DNA of 38,099 nt from Bacteroidota bacterium (GTDB taxonomy: Bacteria > Bacteroidota > Bacteroidia > Bacteroidales > UBA7960): the NCBI GenBank assembly GCA_018335675.1, contig JAGXRQ010000061.1, positions 1-38,099 on the forward strand, given 5' to 3'. The notes beneath the pieces were generated by a model. It was given only the letters and a program-made list of their open reading frames with translations. It did not search any database and was not told the DNA's origin. Numbering within the stretch: position 1 is the stretch's first letter; the number at the start of each line of letters is the position of its first letter. This document shows, in pieces, positions 34,631 to 37,831 of this stretch. Made by a program: the position numbers and the translations under genes.

Positions 34631-34641
34631 AAGTTAAGGTT

Positions 34642-34713
34642 AATGTGCCAATGTGCCAATGTGTTAATGTGTTAATGTGCCAATGTGTTAATTTGTTAAT
34701 GTGCCAATGTGCT
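34642..34713 (-). repeat. Nine-unit 8-bp tandem array ahead of rtcB
   Basis: Nine contiguous 8-base units of the type AATGTGCC (variants AATGTGTT, AATTTGTT, AATGTGCT) run from 34642 to 34713. They occupy the 5' flank of rtcB, which is on the minus strand. Confidence 0.95.
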
Positions 34714-34754
34714 AATTTATTTCAACTTACGAATTACTCTTAATCCTTACATTC

Positions 34755-36617: not shown

Positions 36618-37190
36618 TTAGGTCAGATAAAAATATAGAAATACAAGAGGTATAAGAATTCCTGGAATTGTAAACCATATTCCCCTACGCTTAAAACTAT
36701 TTTTCCCTCTGTTCATATAAAGTCCGGTTAATGCAAATACGATTAGTCCGGCAGCAAATAGATCAGAAAACCACGTCCATAATTTCTTAGGCGCATTGTA
36801 GTGAAGAAAGTTGAATTGATATAAAACCGGAATTCTTTTAGTAACTTCCAAATATCCATCTCCCGTTGTGGTATTTACCTGAACAACCCTTCCGCGATCA
36901 AATCGGCCACGGTCAAAATATATAATCAGATTGTCGGCCACTACCCTAATGTTTCTGTATTGCTGAGTTATTTCAAGCTGATTAAGATAATAAATTGCAT
37001 GTTCATCTTTGTCGGTTATTTCTTCTTTTGGAAGATTTAATTGGAAATGGTCTTTTGTTATTATATAATTAGGATTCCAATGGTGTCGGTGATTTAATGT
37101 AATACCGGAAATCCCATAAATGATACACATTCCAAAGAAAAAGTAACCCAAATCTCGGTGTACAGCTCTGTTTATTTGTCTTAACTTCAT
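36618..37190 (-). CDS. PepSY-associated membrane protein
   Basis: The product is 190 aa and resembles PepSY-associated TM proteins. It begins with HRDLGYFFFGMCIIYGISGI, a membrane helix ending in a TLNHRHHW His cluster at about 31-37. A periplasmic PepSY-like domain follows (about 40-125, with IRVVADNLIIYFDRGR and TTTGDGYLEV). FNFLHYNAPKKLWTWFSDLFAAGLIVFALTG forms helix two, and RGIWFTIPGILIPLVFLYFYL helix three. Relatives often sit with metal or siderophore uptake genes and may act in periplasmic reduction; that role is inference. It has its own promoter, beside a short tandem array. Confidence 0.8.
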   Translation of the reverse strand: MKLRQINRAVHRDLGYFFFGMCIIYGISGITLNHRHHWNPNYIITKDHFQLNLPKEEITDKDEHAIYYLNQLEITQQYRNIRVVADNLIIYFDRGRFDRGRVVQVNTTTGDGYLEVTKRIPVLYQFNFLHYNAPKKLWTWFSDLFAAGLIVFALTGLYMNRGKNSFKRRGIWFTIPGILIPLVFLYFYLT

Positions 37191-37240: not shown

Positions 37241-37274
37241 TAGGGGTATAAGGTATAGGGTATAGGGTATAGGG
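37241..37274. repeat. 7-bp tandem array TATAGGG
   Basis: TATAAGG followed by three TATAGGG units (37247-37274), preceded by a degenerate TAGGGG. It lies between the PepSY promoter and the shared terminator. Confidence 0.9.
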
Positions 37275-37276
37275 TG

Positions 37277-37316
37277 AAAAAAAACCGCAATATTCAATCA
37301 TATTGCGGTTTTTTGT
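37277..37316. terminator. Terminator after the His-rich lipoprotein gene
   Basis: AAAAAACCGCAATAT (37279-37293) pairs with ATATTGCGGTTTTTT (37300-37314) around TCAATC. A and T runs on both flanks allow use on either strand. It separates the lipoprotein transcript from the PepSY gene. Confidence 0.9.
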
Positions 37317-37330
37317 ATCAAATTTTCAGA

Positions 37331-37831
37331 TTATATCCATTCGAAAGAAACAAGGTCGATATGAAATTTAACCATTTTTTTCTGAATCTCTTTTAATTCT
37401 TTATCATGATCGCAATCGTGATCATGCACATGTTCTTCTTCGGCTTCAGCTTCTGCTACAACCTCTTCAGTTGTTTCAGCATTTTCGCAATCGTGTGCTT
37501 TTTCTTCTTTTAAAACACTAACTTTTCCAATCACAGAAATCATTTTTCCTTCACTTTCAGGATTAATTTGTCCTGCAAATTCGCCAAGGTTTACTCTAAC
37601 TCTTAATTCATTGTTATCTTCAGCTACAATGTGCATTTTATCGCCACTGTGACGACATGTATGAAGAACTAAGCCTTCGAAATGAACTTGTTGTCCATCT
37701 AGTTCAGCTGCCTTTTCATAAAGTTCAGCAATTGTATAAGTGTCAATAATTTGTTCTACCTCTTTAGGCTGTTGAGAACATGAAAACAAAAATAAACCTG
37801 CAACTGCAAATAATAAAGCGATTTTTTTCAT
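37331..37831 (-). CDS. Lipoprotein with OB-fold-like core and His/Cys-rich segment
   Basis: The product is 166 aa with lipobox LFSC (Cys18). The mature part reads YEKAAELDGQQVHFEGLVLH, then TCRHSGDKMHIVAEDNN, LRVRVNLGEF and GKMISVIGKVSV, the strand order of a small OB-fold (BOF-like) domain. An inserted acidic segment (112-145) carries HDC, then VHDHDCDHDK: four His and two Cys among Glu/Asp. With HTCRH at 57-61 this suggests divalent-metal binding. The last strand MVKFHIDLVSFEWI closes the domain. It is followed by a terminator and then the PepSY-associated gene, a pairing that would suit metal handling in the envelope. The family name is not certain. Confidence 0.7.
   Translation of the reverse strand: MKKIALLFAVAGLFLFSCSQQPKEVEQIIDTYTIAELYEKAAELDGQQVHFEGLVLHTCRHSGDKMHIVAEDNNELRVRVNLGEFAGQINPESEGKMISVIGKVSVLKEEKAHDCENAETTEEVVAEAEAEEEHVHDHDCDHDKELKEIQKKMVKFHIDLVSFEWI

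Follow-up and report, generated by a model that had tools for sequence, protein, structure and literature searches.

On its reverse strand, the window (the whole 38,099-nt stretch of DNA analysed here) encodes a lipoprotein with a predicted OB fold and a small PepSY membrane protein, and the two form a conserved unit. The lipoprotein keeps a strict His-Cys site and its neighbour resembles a heme-based metal reductase, so the pair probably captures and reduces a nutrient metal, most likely iron. We place at about even the chance that the two genes encode an envelope metal-reduction unit, in which a metal-binding periplasmic lipoprotein serves a heme-dependent, probably ferric, reductase. Support comes from a fold model, ligand conservation, gene linkage, a ligand set that differs between types while the partner gene stays the same, and TonB/ABC context in some relatives. 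The PepSY reductase class is already known; what is new is an OB-fold partner with a proposed metal site, related to DUF4920. The first-pass annotation had proposed an uncharacterised envelope metal-handling module. The conserved pair and its near-invariant core motif support that proposal in part; the HRHH cluster falls away as a metal site, and the His/Cys-rich insert is kept by composition only. "Uncharacterised" fits the pair so far as our literature search goes, but not the PepSY half, since proteins of its class are already regarded as metal reductases or as carriers of electrons across the membrane (PMC8238504, PMC13038864 and PMC13142918, each in part).

Results

Layout of the gene pair

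The window belongs to a 3.36-Mb assembly, 98% complete, with one copy of each gene. The lipoprotein is a real gene, its open reading frame agreeing exactly with the first-pass annotation, and PepSY is the next gene after a gap of about 140 nt. The features discussed below are as follows, with counts over the 64 lipoprotein and 105 PepSY rows described in the next sections.

37331-37831, minus strand: OB-fold lipoprotein, 166 aa, a divergent DUF4920 relative carrying an HxC[RK]HxG site
37649-37663, minus strand: HTCRH (H57-T-C59-R-H61), the proposed metal ligands, spanning the last part of strand 1 (residues 48-58) and the loop that leads to strand 2 (65-69)
37634-37636, minus strand: Met66, possible extra ligand (Met in 47/64, otherwise Leu, Ile or Val)
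37400-37429, minus strand: VHDHDCDHDK, residues 135-144, the His/Cys part of an acidic low-confidence insert
37279-37314, minus strand: terminator-like hairpin between the two genes, 15 bp with A/T flanks, folding energy -19.4 kcal/mol, z -6.1
36618-37190, minus strand: PepSY_TM_like_2 protein (PF16357), 190 aa, three long helices and one PepSY domain
37158-37160, minus strand: PepSY His11, N-terminal, at the presumed cytoplasmic end of helix 1 (105/105)
37089-37091, minus strand: PepSY His34, where helix 1 presumably reaches the periplasm; it opens the HRHH cluster (104/105)
36801-36803, minus strand: PepSY His130, ahead of the second long helix (105/105)

The strong hairpin separates the two genes, so the pair may not be a single transcript in the window, which counts against our reading. 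A terminator scan listed no sites, probably because the T run was absorbed into the stem; the hairpin emerges on folding the sequence. A tandem GGGTATA heptamer (4.6 copies, 37244-37275) also lies between the genes; a 17-mer, with one mismatch allowed, has three matches where none are expected. Judging from these sequences, hairpin and repeat may mean that the PepSY gene is expressed separately or attenuated in the window. By inspection, the genes after the pair read as ABC-F, RtcB-like and HisRS, which are not metal genes.

Linkage and co-occurrence

Starting from 62 lipoproteins found by BLAST with the window protein, PepSY is the next gene downstream on the same strand in 45/62 loci. A scan of genome contigs with the lipoprotein alone gave 82 pattern matches, none confirmed; an alignment of the PepSY protein succeeded instead. 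In this reverse direction, 74 loci among the best 80 of 564 PepSY relatives offer 500 nt or more ahead of the gene, and 64 of the 74 have the lipoprotein directly upstream; the other six have less room, yet two of them show the lipoprotein. The 66 pairs so obtained have a median gap of 65.5 nt. The two sets of loci share contigs and are not independent. Both nonetheless answer the first-pass question of whether the genes stay together in relatives: they do, and they co-occur (below). The absence of linkage elsewhere that would have refuted the first-pass proposal is thus not what these loci show.

The 17 lipoprotein loci lacking an adjacent PepSY count against our reading. Eleven belong to one genus (g6), 9/11 of whose genomes carry PepSY elsewhere; two (L053, L087) are at contig ends, and one (L034) has its PepSY on another contig. 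The genomes of the last three (L032, L040, L090) gave no PepSY match. Across 98 relatives, 54 carry both genes, 8 the lipoprotein only, 8 PepSY only and 28 neither (p 1.3e-10); with one genome per family (51 genomes) the counts are 19, 2, 6 and 24 (p 5.7e-7). These figures underestimate co-occurrence, since the PepSY-only genomes L174 and L175 carry an upstream lipoprotein by profile search.

The outer neighbours of the pair vary (EamA, amylase and NUDIX by Pfam; ABC-F and others by inspection). Judged by PepSY, the closest relatives that carry a name are MAGs of Bacteroidales, and the isolate names of many of them start with CSSed (L092 is 72% identical); cultured relatives carrying the pair include Alkalitalea and Natronoflexus.

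The lipoprotein and its candidate metal site

The lipobox of the window protein ends at Cys18, as in bacterial lipoproteins; this residue is invariant in alignment A2 (60 rows) and present in 60/62 BLAST-found homologues. The protein has no Pfam family of its own (best E 0.044, over the signal peptide), and its NCBIfam matches are weak and far below cut-offs (a lipoprotein family over residues 1-42, 0.0017; TIGR03943 over residues 31-67, 0.02). AlphaFold2, given the 60 rows, predicts an OB barrel with a mean pLDDT of 81.7 and strands at residues 48-58, 65-69, 77-81, 97-106 and 156-165. Block means of pLDDT are 90-98 over residues 31-110 except 84-96 just before, and 54-63 over the insert (111-150). 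Foldseek and VIA-align gave, among the matches listed, a best Z of 13.3 (rmsd 2.1, 87 aligned). The PDB matches listed (tRNA synthetases, Ten1, MCM and others) are presumably all proteins with OB domains, which together with the modelled barrel bears out the fold guessed at first pass; having a fold in common tells nothing about function. A PDB sequence search with the lipoprotein profile returned nine weak matches, all starting at the signal peptide.

HTCRH had been named at first pass, together with VHDHDCDHDK, as a good metal site, a proposal that would be refuted if the His/Cys residues varied freely among homologues; those of HTCRH do not. In the BLAST-found homologues H57 is kept in 61/62, C59 in 62/62, H61 in 57/62 and G63 in 60/62. 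An overlapping second set of 64 rows, made of 60 A2 rows (59 taken from the 66 pairs, plus the window's own) and four rows from a search of the phylum, has H57 and C59 in 64/64, H61 in 53/64 and G63 in 63/64. The four phylum-search rows were chosen as HxC by motif; the pair rows were chosen by position upstream of PepSY and by profile match, not by motif. HxC is present in 66/66 lipoproteins of those pairs (from the best 80 of 564 PepSY relatives), the seven outside A2 included (L096, L097, L102, L121, L123, L134, L169). The absence of H61 from 11/64 lipoproteins counts against our reading. The motif does not lie inside the insert, where it was first placed, but in the core between strands 48-58 and 65-69; only VHDHDCDHDK falls in the insert.

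The insert itself is modelled as a low-confidence loop ahead of the last helix and strand. Over the 64 rows it holds 260 His and Cys where 138 are expected, the highest of 1000 permutations reaching 161; this is 7.8 per 100 residues versus 1.9 elsewhere in the protein with the motif left out. Three or more occur in 47/64 lipoproteins and zero in none. The first-pass description of the insert as His/Cys-rich thus extends to most relatives, as a matter of composition and not of position, since the residues do not align one to one.

Relationship to DUF4920 and the change of ligand set

On sequence, the lipoprotein is a divergent relative of DUF4920 (PF16267). The window protein shows no PF16267 match listed at E<=1 and falls short of the curated cut-off (25 bits), while 21/60 A2 rows match at E<=0.1. 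Among 98 relatives, PF16267 matches 11, of which 10 are at lipoprotein places; four exceed the cut-off, including three lipoproteins at such places, and the single match elsewhere (G091) is strong at 72 bits. Searching 247 of the phylum's genomes with the profile returned 67 places, 54 read and 13 unread. Five of the 54 places read are of the HxC type, the window's own included, and all five lie beside PepSY. The other 49 are of the DUF4920 type, with C-x4-C-[WF] in every one. Twenty of these, in other families, precede the same PepSY gene, with gaps of -22 to 327 nt, and the three checked in Pfam all exceed the DUF4920 cut-off; the remaining 29 have no PepSY alongside in the stretch read.

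The two types share an exported OB-like domain in which Cys59, Gly53, Gly63, Gly95 and Gly102 align. C59 is common to both (64/64 HxC, 49/49 DUF4920-type). They differ in that the lipoprotein is lipidated, carries His57 and His61, and has Cys64-Trp65 (C64 49/49, W65 48/49 in the DUF4920 type) replaced mostly by K/D and K/R. Position 64 of the HxC type is K/D/Q/R/E in 63/64 and position 65 is K or R in 64/64, so that the first Cys of C-x4-C-[WF] is kept throughout without the rest of that motif. The DUF4920-type loop is also rich in His and Cys, with 47 against 21 expected in PepSY-adjacent proteins (20 rows) and 65 against 31 in those not adjacent (29 rows). This enrichment with and without PepSY makes the loop a trait of the wider family, not one specific to the pair.

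A single change parts the two ligand types on the PepSY tree, a quick, unrooted tree with some long rows on which 13 changes are required to place the full set of seven neighbour classes; the DUF4920-partnered PepSYs form one side of a branch with support 100. On an unrooted OB tree built without the motif columns, all 64 HxC rows fall on one side of a branch (100/99). Taken together, the trees indicate that the ligand set changed about once while the PepSY partner stayed, and, being unrooted, they give no direction. A grouping of the PepSY-adjacent DUF4920 rows as one clade in the OB tree was rejected (p-AU 0.011, over 76 columns only), which, like the 29 DUF4920-type loci without PepSY, complicates this picture.

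The PepSY protein

The partner belongs to PF16357 (52.5 bits against a curated cut-off of 27, E 8.5e-14). Its model (pLDDT 87) has long helices at residues 3-33, 137-156 and 166-189 around the single PepSY domain, and on this model we take all three to be membrane-spanning. The 105 PepSY rows span all neighbour types, and across them H11, H34 and H130 are the expected heme ligands on conservation. As in PepSY-type heme reductases, conserved His would thus lie near both membrane faces, with sidedness read from the model helices. The HRHH cluster at the membrane boundary, noted at first pass, was rejected as a metal site on conservation: beyond H34, H36 is kept in 34/105 and H37 in 13/105.

PF16357 includes PepSY-like proteins linked to flavinylation, which share the sequence family, three long helices and conserved His (PMC8238504, in part); no DUF2271 or ApbE partner was seen among the immediate neighbours, and the partner here is an OB-fold protein. 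With the reductases FoxB, XusC, CrpH and VciB the protein shares conserved His near both membrane faces and, in relatives of the window pair, a TonB context (PMC13038864, PMC13142918 and PMC8238504, each in part). FoxB and CrpH are larger, with at least four transmembrane helices and a large periplasmic cavity. A FoxB-like ferrisiderophore reductase would have two PepSY domains, in contrast to the single domain and three long helices in 190 aa found here. A fold search with the PepSY model gave no solved reductase among the matches listed, a point against our reading, and a PDB sequence search with its profile gave a single designed protein (E 0.61).

Residue 131 (36798-36800), beside His130, is Tyr in 77/105 rows, Leu in 19/20 DUF4920-partnered rows and Arg in 3/3 CbiX-partnered rows. 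Its identity by partner class indicates that the position tracks neighbour type.

Other PepSY neighbours and a possible link to iron

In loci without the lipoprotein, PepSY is preceded by a TonB receptor in four cases (L112, L117, L125, L250) and by a CbiX-like protein in L248 and L249 (Pfam) and L246 (by inspection). In L115 (and, by inspection, L120) the preceding gene encodes a small exported protein whose carboxypeptidase-regulatory match stays below the cut-off; the remaining loci have unrelated genes there. The TonB receptors and CbiX-like proteins point to iron or tetrapyrrole handling. PepSY genes with other neighbours also show that neither gene strictly needs the other, a point against our reading. 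The CbiX-like proteins have an apparent lipoprotein or signal start and are PepSY partners in another lineage.

Some other families of Bacteroidales hold the pair inside a larger gene cluster with a TonB receptor. In L251 (family f53), one strand carries in order a TonB receptor, DUF4876, DUF6850, the HxC lipoprotein, PepSY, an ABC ATPase, a putative permease and DUF4857. In L052/L254 (f22), the TonB receptor and DUF4876 lie on the opposite strand, a 581-aa protein precedes the lipoprotein, and the remaining genes follow the L251 order; L252 and L253 are similar to the L251 cluster by position alone. In Bacteroides thetaiotaomicron, BT3625-BT3633 are induced 36.7 to 128 fold by iron depletion and comprise DUF4857, a hypothetical protein, an ABC ATPase, two PepSY_TM proteins, a fimbrillin, two hypothetical/DUF4876 proteins and a TonB receptor (PMC10434189, in part). 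Closely similar content and order suggest that this locus is the counterpart of the L251/L052 cluster, a match by annotation and order only. Against our reading, the same source, in the part cited, lists two PepSY_TM genes and a fimbrillin where the lipoprotein would be expected. A further PepSY protein of Bacteroides, XusC, has been proposed to reduce siderophore iron (PMC13142918, in part).

The window's genome has no DUF4857 match, so the iron-cluster argument applies by analogy and the window pair would act without that cluster. The first-pass annotation had asked whether a TonB receptor lies nearby. The window's list holds 33 ORFs of 100 aa or more, and none of the 10 other window ORFs scanned is such a receptor; TonB receptors do stand beside the pair, or beside PepSY alone, in several other genera and families.

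Discussion

We infer the following topology, heme and metal binding, direction of transfer and metal for an envelope metal-reduction unit. The PepSY protein would be a small transmembrane b-type cytochrome carrying electrons from the cytoplasm or the quinone pool to the periplasmic face, with H34 and H130 binding an outer heme and H11 lying towards the inner face, possibly as a residue shared within a dimer. Anchored in the periplasm, the OB-fold lipoprotein would hold a transition metal at H57, C59 and H61, perhaps with M66, and its acidic His/Cys-rich loop would help to collect the metal. It might present oxidised metal to the PepSY reductase or take the reduced ion from it. The metal would most likely be iron, arriving via a TonB receptor.

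Copper is an unlikely but live rival, because an OB fold can serve as a Cu(I) chaperone, as it does in SilF and CusF (PMC10656224, in part). The lipoprotein would be such a chaperone, and PepSY would reduce Cu(II) on behalf of copper enzymes, the activity proposed for CrpH. Its His/Cys/Met ligands, and the Cys-x4-Cys-Trp-[MIL] of DUF4920-type relatives, would suit Cu(I). CusF and SilF share with it a periplasmic OB fold holding a metal site, and SilF binds its ion by His/Met/Met under a Trp cap (PMC10656224, in part); the ligands here would be His/Cys/His with Met66 and no Trp, a different set. CrpH, a copper-linked PepSY_TM protein, supports heme-copper oxidases (PMC13038864, in part). We compared the genes with COX1, counted in 45 genomes (one below cut-off). 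PepSY is weakly associated with it (p 0.007 over 98 genomes; 0.025 over 51, one per family), which favours copper and counts against our reading, but the lipoprotein shows no clear association (p 0.15; 0.27 with one per family). Moreover, COX1 gave no match in 24 of the 54 genomes that carry the pair of genes, among them the 98% complete window genome, whereas a CrpH-like role would have heme-copper oxidase genes in all carriers; a heme-copper oxidase or copper function is weakened as the general role. CusF and SilF are not among the matches listed in the fold or sequence searches with the lipoprotein.

Heme or tetrapyrrole handling, in which HxCxH binds heme and the pair moves or loads it in the periplasm, we regard as quite improbable. 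The OB fold, the CbiX-like alternative neighbour and the TonB clusters would fit, and CcmE offers a model as an OB-fold chaperone that binds heme. The heme handle of CcmE, however, lies elsewhere in its fold than the HxCxH site, and the Cys-x4-Cys-Trp that replaces the histidines in DUF4920-type relatives is an unlikely heme site. It seems very improbable that the motif forms a structural metal site while the two genes lie side by side without joint function: the hairpin between them and the non-metal genes after the pair in the window speak for it, but linkage persists despite changing outer neighbours and through the change of ligand set. We give least credence to a redox-active thiol fed electrons by PepSY. 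Cys59 is indeed the only ligand common to both types, but at position 64 the HxC proteins do not retain a second Cys, and H57 equals Cys59 in conservation.

Beyond the preferred metal-reduction unit of the window, a broader reading can be offered tentatively, at clearly less than even chances. DUF4920-like OB domains could form an unnamed class of periplasmic metal-binding partners for short PepSY reductases, the ligand set having changed in one step between the Bacteroidales type (His-x-Cys-x-His) and the rest (Cys-x4-Cys-Trp). If true, this would amount to a natural experiment on metal selectivity with the reductase left as it was, and matched protein pairs could reveal how the partner's site sets which metal gets reduced. 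There are many short PepSY proteins, most of them without a known electron acceptor; a dedicated OB-fold partner, kept beside PepSY in many families of the phylum with one change of ligand set, gives DUF4920, on which our literature search found no paper, a testable role.

Minor observations

A cyclic-nucleotide-binding domain is fused to a fumarase/aspartase-like lyase in L112 (5558-7441; Pfam in L112 only). Such genes stand beside or near PepSY in several relatives; those of L117, L125, L115, L083, L066 and L069 are recognised as similar by cluster or inspection. Within the window, a 24-nt tandem repeat (3.2 copies, 34639-34716) separates the apparent ABC-F gene from the apparent RtcB-like one. 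At the contig end (38015-38099) an ORF starts with MSKNTEIKFVGQPIFKQ, which we take to resemble a transposase; a transposase there would explain the contig break.
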